From a virus, in IMG/VR virus record IMGVR_UViG_3300034073_004426, positions 1 to 32,349 of that record: DNA of 32,349 bases; one strand, given 5' to 3'. The notes under the pieces were generated by a model. It saw only the letters and a program-made list of their open reading frames with translations. It did not search any database and had not been told where the DNA came from. Shown one piece after another: positions 16,702 to 25,964 of the stretch. The position numbers and the translations under genes are program-made. Each line of letters opens with the position of its first letter. Position 1 is the stretch's first letter.

Positions 16702-17106
16702 TTATCGTCTACGGGAACGGCGACGCTCCAAAAGGTTTGCGGCTGCTCTCGCTGCTCGCGCCAAACCCCTTCGGATTCTCCCAACTCGTCTACCCGATGA
16801 ACGGCTTGCTACTTGACGCGCAGGTCTACCACCGCCGGCTGCCCTTGCGTTGCCAGCAGCCCTGCCTGCCCTACGACCAACTGCTCTAGTTCTGTCTCTT
16901 CCGGATGCCGCTCTTTGCGCTGCTCGACGACCAGCAAGAAGTTCCTGCTGACGGCGACGATAGTAGCGAGCATTACCGGGAACTGTTCGCCCACCGACAC
17001 GACGAGGACGACGCACAAAACGACCGCGGCGAACAACATTGCCTCGTCTGTCTAGACCGGTTCTGAACTCAATATCTTCGGTAAAAGGTGACCTTGGGCG
17101 TGGCAT
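16702..17106 (-). CDS. Arginine-rich, lysine-free basic protein (protamine-like), unknown
   Basis: A 134-aa protein from ATG 17106, with GGAGGG 3 bases before the start (short spacing). Counting the translation gives 43 Arg (32%) and no Lys. After an N-terminal stretch MPRPRSPFTEDIEFRTGLD the rest is Arg runs separated by Gly/Ala/Ser (for example RRGRFVRRPRR, GRRVGRIRRGLARAARAAANL). An upstream ATG at 17256 would overlap the ParB-like gene and lacks a ribosome site. Such a composition fits nucleic-acid binding, DNA condensation or a virion-internal basic protein, but a structural neck role cannot be excluded. Alternative frames here give no better ORF. Function unproven. Confidence 0.6.
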   Translation of the reverse strand: MPRPRSPFTEDIEFRTGLDRRGNVVRRGRFVRRPRRVGGRTVPGNARYYRRRQQELLAGRRAAQRAASGRDRTRAVGRRAGRAAGNARAAGGGRPARQVASRSSGRRVGRIRRGLARAARAAANLLERRRSRRR

Positions 17107-17161
17107 ATCCCTCCAAAAAGTACACTCAGACTTTACCACACTAATTATGGCTGTGAAATCA

Positions 17162-17710
17162 CTACCTATCAGGATTTGGCGGTCGCTCAATAATCGAAGA
17201 TTCAACTTCCGTAACCTTGGGAACTTCCACTGGGACCCAGGCACGGGAATACTCATATTTCTCTAAATCTTTTCGCTTCAGCAAATCCCCAGTAGCCAAA
17301 AGTTCTATTTCGTCATCCGACATTGACAGTATGGTCGCAAGTTCGTCGTCACCATATTTATTGGAATTGAGTATCCTTTTTACAGCCCTGCTCAAAAGAA
17401 CAGGATGGGTTGCGCCCCTAGCCCTATTCAAACGGATATGCAAAATCATTGCGTCTATTTCGTCCACATCGTGATACAAAACAGGAACAGAAGAGCCGTG
17501 CCTCTTCACGAATCGCTCTTCAGTGGAAGCAATGTGCCATCGGGTGGTTCCGTCAATAATCGTCTGGTCTTCAAGTCTGACAACAATCGGCTGTAGCCAT
17601 CCAGACTCAATCAAAGAAGTGCGCAACAACACCACGTCAGGGCGCAGGATATATGTCGCTTTCCATGAAGGTGGTTTTATGGAAGAAGATGGAACTGTAT
17701 GAATTTGCAC
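17162..17710 (-). CDS. ParB-like nuclease-fold protein (IbrB-like)
   Basis: A 182-aa protein with a GTG start that overlaps the upstream stop as TAGTG, so it is translationally coupled to the PAPS-reductase-like gene. The first 90 residues show the ParB/sulfiredoxin fold: VPSSSIKPP, LIESGWLQPIVVRLEDQTIIDG, then DGTTRWHIAST (about 53-63), equivalent to the 'DGxHR' nucleotide-binding/catalytic motif of this family. The C-terminal half is helical (HIRLNRARGATHPVLLSRAVKRIL). It lacks the DNA-binding and CTP-dimer domains of chromosomal ParB. In E. coli, IbrB-like ParB proteins act with IbrA in controlling prophage genes. The function here is inferred from this pairing. Confidence 0.8.
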   Translation of the reverse strand: MQIHTVPSSSIKPPSWKATYILRPDVVLLRTSLIESGWLQPIVVRLEDQTIIDGTTRWHIASTEERFVKRHGSSVPVLYHDVDEIDAMILHIRLNRARGATHPVLLSRAVKRILNSNKYGDDELATILSMSDDEIELLATGDLLKRKDLEKYEYSRAWVPVEVPKVTEVESSIIERPPNPDR

Positions 17711-18843
17711 TAGTAATCGTTTCCTTCCTCTAATGCTTTCATTCTCATTGTGTGCGCCCGAGTTTTCGGACCGACAGGTGTTGGCGTTGATTGATGAAAC
17801 TCGTTCAACAAAAGTGTACGAATCAAATACTCGAACGGAAACCCGAACGGGTCTACGGCACGCTTTTTTCTGAACAAAGCAGCGAACTTCATAGCCTCTT
17901 TGTGGATACCGTCGGAAAGCATGTTGTCATCAATGCACATCTTCACGCCGTCCCATCCTTGAGATGCATAATAAGAAATGAGTCCTTCTATATCGAAGAA
18001 TTGCCAGTATCTTCTCTGCGCATCTATCTGCGGGAAACACCTGACAAGTTCATCGAAGAAATCAGGTTCCGTGGCAACAACATCACCAATTCTTCGCGAT
18101 GCGACAGAGTGGAGTGGGATGCCGACACGCGAGTTACTCCTCGTTAAATGTGCATAGTCGTAGTAGGCGCAGTATTCTGCCCCATGCTCATCGACGATGA
18201 ATTTCATGACATCTTCTGTTCGCCAGTCGTAGATTATTTTTGCGAATTTAAGCGGAATGGATTTAGGCAAAAGAAATGGGGAAACGATGTAGTTCTCATG
18301 CAACTTTTGAACGCATGACCTATATCTGACCATTGATTCGTTCGCTCTAACGCCTGTGATGAAGGCAACCCTGCCTGTTTTGCCTTGCATCGTGTAATAG
18401 TCAACGATTTTGGGGGTTGGCTTGTTCGGGTCTAACCCGAAATGTTCGGCACGAATAGCCCAAGGGGGCATATCTCTGACTAGTCGACCTTCTTGCTTTC
18501 TTTGCTCTGACCACAACATCAAGTATTCACGCCTACCCAAAACCCAAACCTCCTGTGAAGATGGGAGGCAGTACCACTCCATATCAACCCACGTGTAGTT
18601 TTTTACCTTGGTGACAAAATCGATAACCGACGGACTAACCATCTCTTCGTCACGAAAAATGACTTTTACAGGTCCTAGCCCGCGTTCTTCATGGATTTCC
18701 TTCGCAAGATAAAGAATCGCTGTTGAGTCCTTACCTCCGCTGAACTGCAGGCATACCGTATCGAAAGTGTCGTACACATGACGGATTCGTTGACGCGCTG
18801 CATCAACGCATGAAATATCCAGAAACATTCGTTGGCGAGGCAC
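17710..18843 (-). CDS. PAPS-reductase-like ATP pyrophosphatase (IbrA/DndC-like)
   Basis: A 377-aa protein from GTG 18843 (an internal ATG at 18828 is possible). The PP-loop SGGKDST is at about 35-41 after VCLQF, and FRDEEMVSP follows at about 65. This is the N-type ATP-pyrophosphatase fold used to activate sulfur or other chemistry. Later elements include GRVAFITGVRANESMVRYR and AHLTRSNSRVGIPLHSVASRRI, seen in phage PAPS-reductase-like proteins and in IbrA. The enzyme is unlikely to be a true sulfate-assimilation reductase, because no partner pathway is present and it is paired with a ParB-like gene. Candidate roles are regulation or nucleic-acid modification. Substrate unknown. Confidence 0.8.
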   Translation of the reverse strand: MPRQRMFLDISCVDAARQRIRHVYDTFDTVCLQFSGGKDSTAILYLAKEIHEERGLGPVKVIFRDEEMVSPSVIDFVTKVKNYTWVDMEWYCLPSSQEVWVLGRREYLMLWSEQRKQEGRLVRDMPPWAIRAEHFGLDPNKPTPKIVDYYTMQGKTGRVAFITGVRANESMVRYRSCVQKLHENYIVSPFLLPKSIPLKFAKIIYDWRTEDVMKFIVDEHGAEYCAYYDYAHLTRSNSRVGIPLHSVASRRIGDVVATEPDFFDELVRCFPQIDAQRRYWQFFDIEGLISYYASQGWDGVKMCIDDNMLSDGIHKEAMKFAALFRKKRAVDPFGFPFEYLIRTLLLNEFHQSTPTPVGPKTRAHTMRMKALEEGNDY

Positions 18844-19917: not shown

Positions 19918-20676
19918 TTATCGCGCCCAAGCAGGGCAAATAGTTTTAAAGTGACACCAACCGCAAAGATTGCTAGTGCGGTACTCGAATTCCTCCGATT
20001 CGCACCGTTCGTCAATCATTTTGCGTGTTTTCACTATGTGCTCTTTTACCTTGCTTATGCGTTCCTCCGTAGGGGAGAATGTCAACTTAACCCCTTCTTT
20101 CAGATAAATCAAATTGAGCGAACCAATATTTTTGTTACTTGCGTCACCAGCCAAGATTCCGTAAATGACAAGTTGGTCGAATTTGTCGTCTCGCCACTCT
20201 TTGCGAGGAACTTTGCCAGTCTTGTAGTCGCTGACCTGAATCAAATCCTCTTCATCAACAACCCAACGGTCGATAATGCCCTTGACGCGCACCCCGTCGA
20301 CATCTCCAACAAATTCTGTTTCCACTCCGTTGAGAACAACAAGTTCAGGGTTTTCTACCTTCCACAGATTTTCCACACAAAACCATGCCCGCCAACGAAA
20401 ATCCCTTGCCCCCTGCTCCGTTTTGGTTAAGTGTTCCGCAGGGTCTTTGTATTGGTTCCAAACATTCGAGGCGATAAACCGAGCATTCTGAATAGTTCTC
20501 TCGGATGGTTCCAACTTGTAGAAGACCTCAAGAATCTCATGCACGAAATTCCCGAGCAAGGTTTCCTGCGTCGGCGGTTCCTTGAGATTGTCTATCCGCG
20601 AATACTTGTATTTGAGCGGACACTGATGAAATGTGGCGATTGAACTCGCGGAAAGATAATCGGGTGCTACAAGCAA
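19918..20676 (-). CDS. Cas4/RecB-like PD-(D/E)XK nuclease with Fe-S cluster
   Basis: A 252-aa protein, most likely from TTG 20676, since the conserved LSASSIATFHQCPLKYKY begins immediately after it and no ATG is available. Visible core: H46 (GNFVHEILE), E119, D136 (GIIDRW), then D150-x-K152 in SDYKTGK. Four cysteines, C19 and C238-x2-C241-x5-C247 (CGWCHFKTICPAW), are placed as in Cas4/AddB-type 4Fe-4S nucleases. Such enzymes make 3' single-stranded tails or trim DNA ends. It follows the Rad52-like gene by 6 bases, forming a nuclease plus annealing protein pair as in phage recombination systems. Confidence 0.88.
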   Translation of the reverse strand: MLVAPDYLSASSIATFHQCPLKYKYSRIDNLKEPPTQETLLGNFVHEILEVFYKLEPSERTIQNARFIASNVWNQYKDPAEHLTKTEQGARDFRWRAWFCVENLWKVENPELVVLNGVETEFVGDVDGVRVKGIIDRWVVDEEDLIQVSDYKTGKVPRKEWRDDKFDQLVIYGILAGDASNKNIGSLNLIYLKEGVKLTFSPTEERISKVKEHIVKTRKMIDERCESEEFEYRTSNLCGWCHFKTICPAWAR

Positions 20677-20682
20677 GATGAA

Positions 20683-21387
20683 TCAGTTCGTGAATGTTCC
20701 GCCGAAACTGAGACGCACAACTTCCGCACGAATCAGGTTCAACTCTTCGTCATTCATCTTCGACAAGGGCTTCTGCACACCGTTGCTGTGTTCAGCCCAA
20801 TACGCTTTCACAGCCTTTTTACCGTCGTCGCTCAAGGAATCAAAAAGCGACTTGACCTCATCGTAGAGACTGTTGACAACGGTCTGTTGTGTCGGTGCCA
20901 CCTGCTTGCTGATGTCAATCATTTCTTCAACTTCCATCGCGTCTTCGCTACGAGCAAGATACAAGCCCACTCCCAATGCCTGCGCCGCTTTCTTGAGCGC
21001 ATCAGAAATAGCACCCTTGAACTCATCGCCAAGGTCAAGAATTTGACCCTGCTTCGTGCGCTTAATTTTTTGACCGCCGATACCGTCGCGGATAACCGAA
21101 CTGAACTCGGTGATGTTGTACTCAAGGCGGACATGGGCGATGACAAAATCGGGGTCGTGTTGGTCGCGTTCGCACTTGACAACAGTCATCGACCAATTGT
21201 CAACACCTAGCACCTTGTTGAGTCGGTTGATTACTTCGCTTACTGGAATGTAGGTGAGGTTGACACCACCTTTGTTGATTTTCCGTTCCATCTCCTGTGC
21301 GAATGGTTCGGAAAGGTCTTTGTAGATGTCTACCTTTGGTGTTTGTTCGGTCACTGTGTGTTCTCCTGTTTCGTTGATTACTGACAT
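20683..21387 (-). CDS. Rad52/22-like single-strand annealing protein
   Basis: A 234-aa protein read from ATG 21387, because AAGGAGG lies 6 bases upstream and the preceding gene ends at 21389. A longer frame to 21438 overlaps that gene. Residues about 45-145 follow the Rad52 fold: VSEVINRLNKVLGVDNWSMTV, then VRLEYNITEFSSVIRDGIGG, and DEFKGAISDALKKAAQALGVGLYL, the classic GD..KgA.sDAlKrA...fG..lYL element. It probably anneals single strands during phage recombination and concatemer formation, working with the adjacent Fe-S exonuclease. The C-terminal region (SLFDSLSDDGKKAVKAYWAEH) is helical. Confidence 0.85.
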   Translation of the reverse strand: MSVINETGEHTVTEQTPKVDIYKDLSEPFAQEMERKINKGGVNLTYIPVSEVINRLNKVLGVDNWSMTVVKCERDQHDPDFVIAHVRLEYNITEFSSVIRDGIGGQKIKRTKQGQILDLGDEFKGAISDALKKAAQALGVGLYLARSEDAMEVEEMIDISKQVAPTQQTVVNSLYDEVKSLFDSLSDDGKKAVKAYWAEHSNGVQKPLSKMNDEELNLIRAEVVRLSFGGTFTN

Positions 21388-21388
21388 C

Positions 21389-21907
21389 TTACGCCTCCTT
21401 GTGGACGATGAGATTTGTTTTGGCTTCGCCGATTTCACAGTATTGGTCGGCGTTTATGCCGATTTTTGAAAGTTCCTTGACGCGCCAATACGAAGGCTGT
21501 ACATAGTCGAGCAATTTCAACGCGATTTGCTCGGATGTCATAACAACCTCGCCCGTGTCCATGTCGACGGACATTTGGTTCAATCTGCGCAAAACCTCAC
21601 GAGTCAGGTTTTCGTGTTGCCAAGTTTTCCTGTCCGCACCCGTTTTCTTCTCAATGGATTGACCGTTGGAAGCAGAGAACGGGATATCGGGAAGAGAGTC
21701 GATGACCATTCCCGAATAGTCCGAATACATCACACCAATTTCAGCCTTGATGGTGTGCATCAAAACGAGTGCATCAATGCGGTCTTGTGTGCTCTCGCTT
21801 TCGGCAATGTTTTTGAGCGTCGCCTGAACTTCAATCAGTTGCTTGCGCAACGCCATGAGAGAGCCGAGGGTAGGCGAGTCTGCCCACTTTTCGTTTTGGT
21901 TTGACAT
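21389..21907 (-). CDS. Unknown protein of the recombination cluster
   Basis: A 172-aa protein with AGGAAA upstream of ATG 21907. The N-terminal half is helical (LGSLMALRKQLIEVQATLKNI). The C-terminal half contains DRKTWQHENLTREVLRRL and ends PSYWRVKELSKIGINADQYCE followed by NLIVHK. I recall similar 'YWRxxxLxxLGIxxDxYC' endings in actinobacteriophage proteins encoded next to Rad52 or Cas4-like genes, but no function is known. It probably assists recombination or replication. No catalytic motif was seen. Confidence 0.65.
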   Translation of the reverse strand: MSNQNEKWADSPTLGSLMALRKQLIEVQATLKNIAESESTQDRIDALVLMHTIKAEIGVMYSDYSGMVIDSLPDIPFSASNGQSIEKKTGADRKTWQHENLTREVLRRLNQMSVDMDTGEVVMTSEQIALKLLDYVQPSYWRVKELSKIGINADQYCEIGEAKTNLIVHKEA

Positions 21908-22200: not shown

Positions 22201-23505
22201 CTAGACGATGATAGTGACAGGTTTCCTCTGTGGCAACCCCAAACCCGTAAGAAACACGAATGCCCCAACCGCAGAGTCGACTTGGTCATCATGGTTGCAA
22301 GCCTCGGGGAAAGAAGAAAACTCATCAAGCCAATCGGTGAGCCAAGCACCGCGTACAAGGCGCACATTGCCGTTGGCTACCGCAGCAGCGAACGGTCTCG
22401 CTCTTGTGACTTTGTCCCCCGTGGGTCGTTCGCCCATAAGGTCGTAGCCGGGGACGACATAGCGCGCGTATTGGTCAATGAGTGCCTTGCCTGACGAACC
22501 CGGTTCCTGTTCCATGCGGATGGCTACATTTGCCCCGTCTTCTCTGGCTGTCTGAGCCACAAAAGCCTCCACCTTTTCCCCTTTTGCCCGTATTTTGCGG
22601 ACATCAATCACATAGGCAATTCCCGCCTCGAACATCATTAATGTTCCTACCGTCCAGTCGGGGTCGGGGTTCCCTGGGTGGGGTTCGGTGGCAGCCAAGT
22701 CCCAATATCTGACGAAACGACTAGAACTTGATGGATTTGGGAGTTCTGTGTAGTCAATAATAGGAAAATTGGTTCTATCAAACATGGTTCCTAGCGTTGT
22801 AGCCCACCAATCGCCACTTTCCAGCCGTCGGCGCTCAATAGGGTCTAGGGACGCAAGCGCTTGACGATAGGAATCCGCGTCGATTCCGGGGTTATCCGTC
22901 AGGAACGAAGGCACAAAAATACGGTTTTCTTCCTTGCCCTCGACAATGAACCTCTGCCTAACCCAATTGGGTGCGGGGTTGGAAGCCGCCCTCATTCTTA
23001 AAGGAACCTCAGAAAGCGGACCAGAAGCGGGTCGACGCAAACGGGAAAACAGATAGCGGTAATCCGACTCCCTGATTTCGGTCACTTCGTCCATGCCAAT
23101 GAACTGAAACTCCGAACCTTTGTATCGAAGGTAGTCGTTCGTATTATTTAGATAGCCGAACGAGATTCTCGCACCAGACGGGAAAGTCGCCACATAACTG
23201 TTGGCGTTCCAATGAACATCGTCATAGTTGGAAATCCAAGTACGGAAGCGGTCCATAAGCGCTCCCGGCAAAGATAGGTCGGCATAGGTTTTTCTGAAAA
23301 GAATCGCCGAATAGTTAGGAACATCCACATACTGCAAAGCGGACATCAAAAGAGCCGAAGATTTACCTCCACCCGCAGCCCCACCGAACAGAGCCTCCAA
23401 AGCGTATGTTCGCAGAAAAACAAGTTGGGTAACGGAAGGCTGCTCAGGGCAAAACAAAGGCTCCTTCGGCATCAGGTAATCGTAAATAGATTTCCAGTCA
23501 GGCAT
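22201..23505 (-). CDS. terL: Terminase large subunit
   Basis: A 434-aa protein. The ATPase domain has Walker A GGAAGGGKSS (41-50), Walker B FQFIGMDE (133-140) and coupling motif ASNP (about 174-177). The C-terminal RNase H-like nuclease shows D269 (RYWDLAATEP), IDVRKIR (about 300) and HDDQVDSAVG (405-414). This motor pumps DNA into the prohead through the portal and cuts concatemers. Length is typical for a compact TerL. It is transcribed leftward, divergent from the portal gene, which is unusual because terL and portal are normally adjacent on one strand. No SD consensus is clear (GGAAAA before the ATG). Confidence 0.93.
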   Translation of the reverse strand: MPDWKSIYDYLMPKEPLFCPEQPSVTQLVFLRTYALEALFGGAAGGGKSSALLMSALQYVDVPNYSAILFRKTYADLSLPGALMDRFRTWISNYDDVHWNANSYVATFPSGARISFGYLNNTNDYLRYKGSEFQFIGMDEVTEIRESDYRYLFSRLRRPASGPLSEVPLRMRAASNPAPNWVRQRFIVEGKEENRIFVPSFLTDNPGIDADSYRQALASLDPIERRRLESGDWWATTLGTMFDRTNFPIIDYTELPNPSSSSRFVRYWDLAATEPHPGNPDPDWTVGTLMMFEAGIAYVIDVRKIRAKGEKVEAFVAQTAREDGANVAIRMEQEPGSSGKALIDQYARYVVPGYDLMGERPTGDKVTRARPFAAAVANGNVRLVRGAWLTDWLDEFSSFPEACNHDDQVDSAVGAFVFLTGLGLPQRKPVTIIV

Positions 23506-23583: not shown

Positions 23584-23760
23584 ATGGACAAAATCAACTA
23601 TTTTCGCAAACTCACCACTCGTACATCCGCGGCAAACACTCTGATGGTTTTATTCATAGTAGGAACAACGATTGGTGCGGGAATGATAATGCTTCCGGCG
23701 GGATTCATAGTCGGTGGGGTCACCTGCGGCGTTTACGGGTTCCTGTTGGGGTCTGAATAA
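23584..23760 (+). CDS. Small membrane protein upstream of portal
   Basis: A 58-aa protein read from ATG 23584; an in-frame GTG at 23572 is possible. It has a short charged N-terminus (MDKINYFRKLTTRTS) followed by hydrophobic, Gly-rich segments (LMVLFIVGTTIGAGMIMLPAG and IVGGVTCGVYGFLLG), so one or two membrane helices. The stop overlaps the portal ATG as TAATG, so it is the first gene of the rightward operon and coupled to the portal. Possible roles are membrane anchoring of prohead assembly, a holin-like factor or superinfection exclusion. No family recognised. Confidence 0.6.
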   Translation: MDKINYFRKLTTRTSAANTLMVLFIVGTTIGAGMIMLPAGFIVGGVTCGVYGFLLGSE

Positions 23761-25964
23761 TGGCTTGGAACAACACGAATAATAAAAATCTTGCGAACTC
23801 GCAAGAAGAAAAAGTGCTGAACCCTGGCGCGCCCGTCGTCTACGACATGGGCAAAGTCGGACGCCCATACCGAGACGGTTGGGATATTGAACGCGCATAC
23901 CGAGAAGGACACCAAAAAGTTACTTGGGTGTTCCGATGCATTGATGCGATTGCCGGCAACCAATCACGCCTGCCCATCATGTTGCGAAAAAACAATGACC
24001 AAAGAGGCGAGCGGGTAAAAGCAGACAGACCAATCATGGAATTGCTCAACAGCAAATCCAACATGGGGGAAAACTCGTTCATTTTCCGCTACAGACTTTC
24101 GGCTCAACTACTGATGAGCAGCCGCGGAGTCTTCATCGAAAAGATTCGAGGCAACGACGGACGCTTGATTGCCCTGCATCTTCTCCCTCCGCAACACACC
24201 GCACCAATACCCGATGCAAGAAAGTTTGTTTCGGGATTCGAAGTTGACATGCACAACGGAACAAAAGTTCGCCTCAAGCCAGAAGATGTGTGCTGGATTC
24301 GCAGACCACACCCATTAGACCCGTATCTCTCAATCACACCAATGGAAGCAGCGGGAATCGCAATTGAGTTGGAAAACCTTTCCAAGATGTACAACCGCAA
24401 CTACATGCTCAACGATGGAAGACCTGGCGGTTTGCTTGTCGTCCGAGGGGACATGGAGGAAGACGACAAGGCGGAGTTGCGCTCTAGATTCCGTGGAAAC
24501 ATCACAAAGACGGGGGCGACAACCGTTATCGCATCTAGCGATGGCGTTGATTATGTCGACACGTCAGCGTCACCGCGTGATGCCGCATATACGCAAATGC
24601 GCCAAATACAGAAAGAAGAAATCCTTTCGGCATTCGGCGTTCCAGAGTCAGTCATAGGAAATGCCGCGGGCAGAACATTTAGCAACGCATCAGAAGAGTT
24701 AAGAGTTTTCTGGATGGAAACAATGGTTCCCCATCTGCACACTCTTGCTCGCGCCCTCGACGAACTCGACGACAAATATTATGTCGACTTTGACACTTCA
24801 GATATCCCCATTTTGATTCTCGCCAAACAAGAACGCGAGCGATACCACATGGACGAGTTCCAACAGGGTTTGATTTCGCTCAACGAATACCGAGATGCGA
24901 CAGGCAAGAAAAAAGTTGAGTCAGAACTCGCTGACTCACTGTTGTCCAACCCGAACCTCACCCCGATTGCCAACACGGAAAAGCCGTTCAAGCCAGAACA
25001 GCAACAACCAGTTGACATGGTCGGAGCAGAGCAGGGAGCACCCGCAGGGGGAATGCCTCCCATGGAAGGCGCGCCCGCGATGCCACAGCCAGCGCCCCCC
25101 GCACCCATACCGGCACCTGAACCAGCGGGCGGAGAAGTTTCACCAGAAAACACTGCGATGGCGCCAGCAGAACAACTCAGCGAATTTGAATCTTTACAGA
25201 ACGATATTCACAGCAAGTTCATTGAGCAGTTGGAAAGCAAGGCTGATGCCGACACTGACAGATGGACAGAAATTTTGGACAGAAGCCTTGAACGCTTGTT
25301 CGAAAGACAACAGCGTGTTGTCATGGAGAAGGCAAACGGCAAAAAAGCGTTGAAAGCAATTCAAAATGGGACGCTCACTGCCGAGATGATTTTCGACAAA
25401 GATGTTTGGGATAAGCAAATGAACGACGACATCAAGCCAGTGATTGTCGCAATTTGCAACGAGGCGAAGGAATATGTTTCTACGCGCTCCAATATGCCTG
25501 CGGAACTAGACGAAGAAGAACTCGAGAAGATGGCGCAGGAACAGATTGCGCGAATGCAACAGGCGAATCAGTCAACATTCGAGGAAATTGTTTCTGCCGT
25601 TCTTGTTGCTCTTGCTGGTGGGGACGACGACGATAAGTCCGCTCTCCTGAGGCTTGCCCTTGTCGCCATTTTCATTAATCTGCTCCGTAAGCGCAAGCGT
25701 GCAATGGCTGAGCATGAGGCTCAGACTGCCTATAATGCTGGTGTTTTCCTTTCAGGTAAAGACGCTGGCGGTCTCTCCAAGACATGGTTGACACGCAAAG
25801 ACCCCAATGTTCGTGCCACCCATCAGTTCTTGGAAGGTAAGACCGTCGACTTTGGTGAGGGTTTTGTTGTGAACAACATGATTCTGAGGTTCCCCGGCGA
25901 CCCGCTCGCCCCACCGTCGCTCACCTACAACTGTCGATGCCGCCTCAGACTGAGGTTCGATTAG
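23760..25964 (+). CDS. Portal protein fused to a MuF-like (SPP1 gp7-type) domain
   Basis: A 734-aa protein. Residues about 1-400 are an HK97-type portal: VTWVFRCIDAIAGNQSRLPIML, DEAEL-like helices, YTQMRQIQKEEILSAFGVPESVIG and NASEELRVFWMETMVPHL. A Pro/Ala/Glu-rich linker (about 415-470, APAMPQPAPPAPIPAPEP) leads to a helical second domain. The C-terminus (about 675-734) has the Mu gpF signature KTWLTRKDPNVRATHQFLEGK ... FPGDPLAPP ... YNCRCRL, including R685, H688 and C725/C727. The portal forms the DNA gate; MuF proteins lie inside the head and can carry effector domains. Fusion of the two in one chain is unusual; no extra enzyme motif is visible in the linker. Confidence 0.9.
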   Translation: MAWNNTNNKNLANSQEEKVLNPGAPVVYDMGKVGRPYRDGWDIERAYREGHQKVTWVFRCIDAIAGNQSRLPIMLRKNNDQRGERVKADRPIMELLNSKSNMGENSFIFRYRLSAQLLMSSRGVFIEKIRGNDGRLIALHLLPPQHTAPIPDARKFVSGFEVDMHNGTKVRLKPEDVCWIRRPHPLDPYLSITPMEAAGIAIELENLSKMYNRNYMLNDGRPGGLLVVRGDMEEDDKAELRSRFRGNITKTGATTVIASSDGVDYVDTSASPRDAAYTQMRQIQKEEILSAFGVPESVIGNAAGRTFSNASEELRVFWMETMVPHLHTLARALDELDDKYYVDFDTSDIPILILAKQERERYHMDEFQQGLISLNEYRDATGKKKVESELADSLLSNPNLTPIANTEKPFKPEQQQPVDMVGAEQGAPAGGMPPMEGAPAMPQPAPPAPIPAPEPAGGEVSPENTAMAPAEQLSEFESLQNDIHSKFIEQLESKADADTDRWTEILDRSLERLFERQQRVVMEKANGKKALKAIQNGTLTAEMIFDKDVWDKQMNDDIKPVIVAICNEAKEYVSTRSNMPAELDEEELEKMAQEQIARMQQANQSTFEEIVSAVLVALAGGDDDDKSALLRLALVAIFINLLRKRKRAMAEHEAQTAYNAGVFLSGKDAGGLSKTWLTRKDPNVRATHQFLEGKTVDFGEGFVVNNMILRFPGDPLAPPSLTYNCRCRLRLRFD

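Follow-up and report, generated by a model that had tools for sequence, protein, structure and literature searches.

A recurrent gene set for an IbrA-like PP-loop protein and two ParB-fold partners in tailed phages, with a candidate role in adenylation-driven modification

The IbrA and IbrB proteins of E. coli (COG3969 and an IbrB-like domain) bring together a PP-loop protein resembling PAPS reductase and a protein of the ParB fold, and activation of the prophage eib genes is the sole genetic phenotype ascribed to the family (Sandt et al., 2002, as cited in PMC10434257). These names were attached to phage proteins long ago, as two earlier papers indicate (PMC4490671, PMC4541368), and the papers searched hold no solution of the mechanism. 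ParB-like proteins also stand beside nucleic acid modification enzymes, DndB with DndC and DpdB with DpdA, and DpdB has been described as a ParB-like ATPase that serves in the insertion of dPreQ0 into DNA (PMC12839542). A recent survey shows CTP, ATP or GTP to be ligands of the ParB/Srx fold, and ATP or GTP to be those of a DndB-like protein (PMC12704722). Phage genes that carry the PHROG label 'phosphoadenosine phosphosulfate reductase' have elsewhere been taken as belonging to sulfur or host metabolism, and two papers count them among sulfur AMGs (PMC10434257, PMC8879888). Here we describe a phage locus of this kind and show how it compares with these systems.

The window, by which we mean the whole stretch of 32,349 nucleotides that was analysed, is an IMG/VR fragment of a larger virus, as its positions 3069-32349 match a 100,569-base contig (G001) with 100% identity. 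On its minus strand lie the two genes proposed in the initial annotation, both of which were confirmed as open reading frames: an ibrA-like gene (17710..18843) for a predicted PP-loop ATP pyrophosphatase or adenylyltransferase of the PAPS-reductase superfamily, of 377 amino acids and without DUF3440, and an ibrB-like gene (17162..17710) for a putative NTP-binding protein of the ParB/Srx fold, of 182 amino acids and with a short helical tail. The TAGTG overlap reported between them was read directly at 17708..17712 (minus strand): in the junction ...GATTACTAGTGCAAATT..., with the codons GAT TAC TAG TG CAA, the first gene's TAG stop runs into the GTG start of the second. Upstream of ibrA, PHROG and Pfam searches place genes for the terminase large subunit that heads the ibrAB block (22201..23505, minus strand; phrog_979, E 6e-103), a Cro/C1-type HTH protein, a Rad52-type annealing protein (20683..21438, minus strand; PF04098, E 5e-13) and a PD-(D/E)XK nuclease (19918..20676, minus strand; PF12705, E 1e-33). 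Downstream of ibrB, PHROG assigns head-completion and tail genes, and since a tail sheath is among them the window phage is a myovirus. The context thus differs slightly from the packaging-to-tail operon in which the pair had been placed, its position being between the terminase/Rad52/PD-(D/E)XK block and the head-completion and tail genes.

Some further features of this virus were observed. A listed open reading frame at 16702-17256 overlaps ibrB; relatives suggest that it truly starts with MPRPR at about 17105, and it encodes a small, strongly arginine-rich protein that precedes the head-completion genes. On the strand opposite to terminase, a portal and a C-terminal head-morphogenesis stretch form one polypeptide (23760-25964; phrog_2662 and phrog_2468). 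The minus strand of G001 carries twelve copies of GACGGTGG[CA]GGAAA between bases 1327 and 21702, mostly as TGACGGTGGCGGAAAGC, with none in the window; these repeats of the first 22 kb, several of them right ahead of an ATG, resemble start-associated repeats, and three copies of another motif, AACACACGGAGGTAATAAAGAA, stand ahead of start codons in the same 22 kb.

The ibrA product matches PF01507 (PAPS_reduct) above the gathering threshold in a Pfam search (E 3e-9) and phrog_2302 in a PHROG search (E 5e-74). The PP-loop SGGKDST that had been pointed out in it (residues 35-41; 18721..18741, minus strand) recurs as SGGKD[ST] in 131 of 132 unique homologues, as does the substrate-side motif GxRxxES, here GVRANES (residues 164-170; 18334..18354, minus strand), while DWRTEDV (residues 206-212; 18208..18228, minus strand), common to FAD synthase and CysH according to a PDB profile match, is represented by DWxxxD[VI] in all 132. 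The catalytic ECGxH and iron-sulfur CCxxR motifs of CysH were found in none of these 132 proteins, nor is any cysteine universal among them or their 21 clusters; at the position richest in cysteine, 76% of the clusters have Cys, and the DUF3440 type has Asn instead. The AF2 model of IbrA (pLDDT 87, pTM 0.82) is nearest in fold to human FAD synthase (E 3.5e-7), CysH and FMN adenylyltransferase, and FAD synthase and CysD are its top sequence-profile matches among PDB profiles, a single-sequence PDB search having returned noise only. Neither FAD synthase nor CysD needs a sulfur-carrying cysteine to function, and because of this likeness AMP transfer is the likeliest chemistry of the modelled protein. 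With its ATP and substrate motifs intact and the cysteine motifs absent, IbrA is no PAPS reductase, judged by its sequence, and it looks built for adenylating something, perhaps DNA, rather than for sulfur metabolism. DUF3440 (PF11922) is strongly matched by IbrA proteins from an E. coli plasmid, from Streptococcus and from locus L123, and gave no match in the window protein or in its Kovu, Bacillus and Taranis homologues. Because the domain is absent, the window protein is not filed as IbrA proper: the IbrA/IbrB likeness claimed at the outset stands as distant relatedness, at about 30% identity for both proteins, but does not extend to membership with the E. coli protein.

The ibrB product matches the ParB-like family phrog_2159 in a PHROG search (E 7e-31) and scores 17.7 bits against PF02195 (ParB_N), below the 26.3-bit cut-off. 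The IbrB family profile aligns with solved ParB/Noc chains (E 7e-10), and the predicted fold (pLDDT 83) resembles ParB, Noc and KorB in Foldseek (E about 1e-7), with weaker matches to sulfiredoxin (Srx). The ParB/Srx DGTTRW motif noted earlier was found at 17540..17560 (minus strand), where IIDGTTR (residues 51-57) would form the GxxR nucleotide-binding box of ParB; NRARG (residues 95-99; 17414..17428, minus strand) would form the second, N..R, box. Residues D53, G54, R57, N95, R96 and G99 are invariant in 29 homologues, and IbrB thus presents a ParB fold with both the G-x-x-R and the N-x-x-R box. Past this fold the model contains short helices and a disordered tail only, with no complete ParB DNA-binding domain (HTH) or C-terminal dimerisation region predicted.

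At least 599 homologues of ibrA were found in IMG/VR, and 210 GenBank phage records match it, including phages of Arthrobacter, Mycobacterium, Bacillus, Rhizobium, Faecalibacterium, Streptococcus and Flavobacterium. A check of whether the two genes co-occur across phages, as the initial annotation had expected, found ibrB encoded in 122 of 127 loci with ibrA. The five loci in which it was not detected comprise two contig ends, one real lone ibrA (L079) and two of the DUF3440 type, which are too divergent for the search used; one of these two, Streptococcus phage D4276, does carry an annotated ParB. With terminase as an anchor independent of ibrA and ibrB, both genes were present in 36 of the 40 loci with room for them. 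Comparison with L002-L073 gave dN values of 0.06-0.27 for ibrA and 0.12-0.56 for ibrB, dS being saturated. Both proteins are constrained, and the locus is not a chance one.

Variants of the locus were also seen. At the same place, L234 (12784-14720) and L250, both contig fragments from the same phage group, have ibrB without ibrA; there ibrB comes after HNH/RuvC/phrog_1389-like genes, and a second ParB lies elsewhere on the L234 contig. An open reading frame of about 167 amino acids lies between ibrA and ibrB in L006 (5191-5694), L011 (7135-7638) and L028 (7135-7638), and that of L006, the one searched, matched nothing in Pfam or PHROG. In L183 (3577-4707) an open reading frame runs from IbrB, truncated near residue 68, into the middle of a terminase; this fusion was rejected as evidence, because it more likely arose through deletion within a decayed prophage or through a join made during assembly.

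To call the locus a pair captures the co-occurrence of ibrA and ibrB but leaves the set incomplete, because a second ParB_N protein belongs to the module as well. When homologues were clustered at 60% identity, ibrB lay just downstream of ibrA in 19 of the 21 divergent lineages and a second ParB_N gene just upstream in 17, often overlapping the ibrA start; in a control segment 2.5-6.5 kb downstream such a gene was found in none of the 21. Some of these loci match the second-ParB profile by construction, because it was built partly from a few of them; this does not apply to the others. Several annotated regions of cultured phages likewise read ParB, PAPS-like, ParB near terminase. The second ParB is phrog_723, a subfamily different from IbrB, to which it aligns weakly. 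In the window lineage it lies about 51 kb from ibrA (G001:33117-33890; PF02195, E 4e-7), behind HNH, RuvC and phrog_1389 genes, and in L058, L074 and L077 this same row of genes continues directly into ibrA-ibrB; one of the two arrangements, adjacent or separated, must therefore have come from the other, by splitting or by joining. A split in the window lineage is the favoured reconstruction, because the adjacent form recurs among unrelated phages. Among 30 long contigs IbrA was found in 27, IbrB in 28, the second ParB in 28 and all three in 25; in nine, more than 40 kb separates the parts. None of the 14 contigs that reach 100 kb or more lacks any of the three genes. Co-presence within a group is by itself weak evidence, because related phages share core genes, and the stronger argument is that the triad recurs in unrelated phages. 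On these sequence comparisons, the pair is part of a conserved three-gene set of a ParB_N partner, IbrA and IbrB, and the module is an IbrAB-type, DUF3440-less subfamily with three proteins in its full form.

The function that we favour, tentatively and at something short of an even chance, is to modify phage DNA or nucleotides by way of adenylation. According to this proposal, IbrA would split ATP into AMP and PPi and adenylate a phosphate or oxygen of its substrate, like FAD synthase and CysD. Both ParB-fold proteins would bind NTP and serve as switch and substrate-positioning parts that gate IbrA, a role modelled on the ParB-like companions of modifying enzymes in the Dpd and Dnd systems. 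The likeliest substrate would be phage DNA, DNA ends or a nucleotide during recombination and packaging, and the resulting modification would protect or mark the phage genome. We prefer this reading because a DndC above cut-off, a cysteine desulfurase and TGT are missing from 14 long relatives, because the neighbourhood is terminase-led and because ParB-like proteins accompany modification enzymes elsewhere. Across diverse loci terminase is the commonest neighbour family, followed by SNF2 helicases, primase/helicase, portal and methyltransferases, and in the window virus the second ParB sits behind HNH and RuvC. Against DNA modification, the linkage to terminase could be ordinary phage gene order, and the eib phenotype in E. 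coli suggests regulation; the ibrB genes without ibrA in L234 and L250 speak against it as well, though these contigs are fragments.

That phenotype makes a transcriptional (co)activator, with IbrA and IbrB jointly switching on phage genes, the main rival, and the IbrB fold also resembles the ParB-family repressor KorB. However, the effect in E. coli could be indirect, the IbrB model ends in short helices and a disordered tail in place of a complete ParB DNA-binding domain, and no palindrome was repeated more than twice in 100 kb of the virus, which leaves none fit for an operator set; an ATP-pyrophosphatase site intact in 131 of 132 homologues is also unexpected for a plain regulator, and we consider this role unlikely. 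The same palindrome search bears on genome partition or plasmid-prophage maintenance through the ParB proteins, which we regard as highly improbable. The ParB fold is in keeping with it, but canonical ParABS partition involves a ParA partner, parS sites and HTH and dimerisation domains, and we found no parS-like repeated palindrome in that sequence, and no linked parA in the loci examined, while the IbrB model shows neither a complete ParB HTH nor the dimerisation region of the C-terminus. AMP-transfer chemistry and NTP binding by the ParB fold would serve equally well in counter-defence or host takeover, where a host protein, a tRNA or a signalling nucleotide would be adenylated, and PHROG files phage PAPS-reductase-like genes under host takeover/moron. 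We hold this, too, to be an improbable account: the terminase, recombination and RuvC/HNH neighbours that recur across unrelated phages favour phage DNA, and the near-universal presence of the module in its phage group, at 36 of 40 terminase loci, is unlike typical variable counter-defence genes.

Explanations based on sulfur have the superfamily of IbrA to draw on. In DNA phosphorothioation, IbrA would behave like DndC or SspD and place sulfur in the backbone of the phage DNA. In keeping with this, the N-terminal part of the protein weakly matches DndC, BrxP and SspD, and prophage PAPS-reductase homologues have been likened to DndC (PMC8092301). The comparison with DndC made in the initial annotation nevertheless proved weak, as the window protein scores 16.9 bits against the DndC model, whose cut-off is 290, and has no universal cysteine in its family. 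The accompanying statement that sulfur-pathway and dnd genes are lacking nearby was borne out: a DndC above cut-off, a cysteine desulfurase (PF00266) and TGT, the 7-deazaguanine partner, were each absent from 14 long relatives, the PF00266 and TGT searches being positive in 14 of 14 control genomes. A DndC assignment calls for a curated model match together with linked dnd or cysteine desulfurase genes, and neither was found here; with their supporting genes absent from the long relatives, phosphorothioation by DndC and 7-deazaguanine partners were rejected. Sulfur could still come from a host desulfurase, and phosphorothioation seems very unlikely to us. A true PAPS/APS reductase acting in auxiliary sulfate assimilation, as the automatic PHROG label implies, is scarcely credible. 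CysH enzymes are recognised by ECGxH and/or CCxxR, and with both motifs missing from all 132 homologues, and the catalytic cysteine with them, we rejected this candidate; its partners, moreover, are ParB-fold proteins, and no sulfur genes were found among the neighbour families of diverse loci. In this respect the original placement of the protein outside true sulfate assimilation holds.

The reading that we carry forward is thus the modification, through adenylation, of phage DNA or nucleotides. Taken to its full extent, it would make the triad a system, so far undescribed, by which tailed phages modify DNA or process its ends without sulfur; the system would be adenylation-based, tied to recombination and packaging, and mislabelled in public databases as an auxiliary sulfate-reduction gene. 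So complete a claim is doubtful, and we put it forward as such. The open-access passages searched contain no description of the three-gene form or of its split arrangement. New here are the triad, a motif pattern that is not that of a PAPS reductase, and the lack of DndC above cut-off, cysteine desulfurase and TGT in 14 long relatives. Since ibrA is extremely common in phages, with at least 599 homologues in a single collection, and routinely passes for a sulfur-cycling viral 'PAPS reductase', it matters that the missing cysteines argue against such a role in this subfamily. Cultured phages with the triad (Phlyer, Kovu and Bacillus phage 055SW001) make a function that has been open since 2002 testable in ordinary laboratory phages, and if their DNA is modified, an adenylation-based route would join the known phage DNA modifications.

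Among known systems, DndC, SspD and BrxP with DndB, and DpdA with DpdB, likewise couple a modification enzyme to a ParB-like protein, DndC within the PP-loop superfamily. The window protein differs in a DndC score far below cut-off and in weak matches to BrxP and SspD, and from 14 long relatives a DndC above cut-off, a cysteine desulfurase and TGT are all absent. FAD synthase and FMN adenylyltransferase provide the nearest solved folds and profile matches, share the DW...D and YC..YD motifs and transfer AMP without sulfur, but identity is only 11-17% and IbrA adds a helical C-terminal region and ParB partners. E. coli IbrA and IbrB are likewise a PP-loop PAPS-reductase-like and a ParB-fold protein, at 30% identity to the window's IbrA (E 2e-19) and 30% to its IbrB (E 3e-8; hhalign probability 99.9), although E. 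coli IbrA has a C-terminal DUF3440 that the window protein is without. Relatives of the window have the second ParB_N partner. By contrast, an SNF2-type helicase lies upstream in the single phage locus of the DUF3440 type that was examined, from Streptococcus phage D4276, and in L191 (E. coli CP55_Sichuan) a 3'-5' exonuclease gene stands between ibrA and a divergent ibrB-like gene; the L191 ibrA allele was found in 36 of 5,426 complete genomes. Mycobacterium phage Phlyer (gp1, gp4 and gp5, with gp4 and gp5 annotated IBrA and IBrB) and Arthrobacter phage Kovu (gp5-gp7) encode these proteins too, with unchanged gene order and a short way ahead of terminase. Their proteins are 34-37% identical to those of the window, and they keep the second ParB nearby, whereas in the window virus it lies about 51 kb off.
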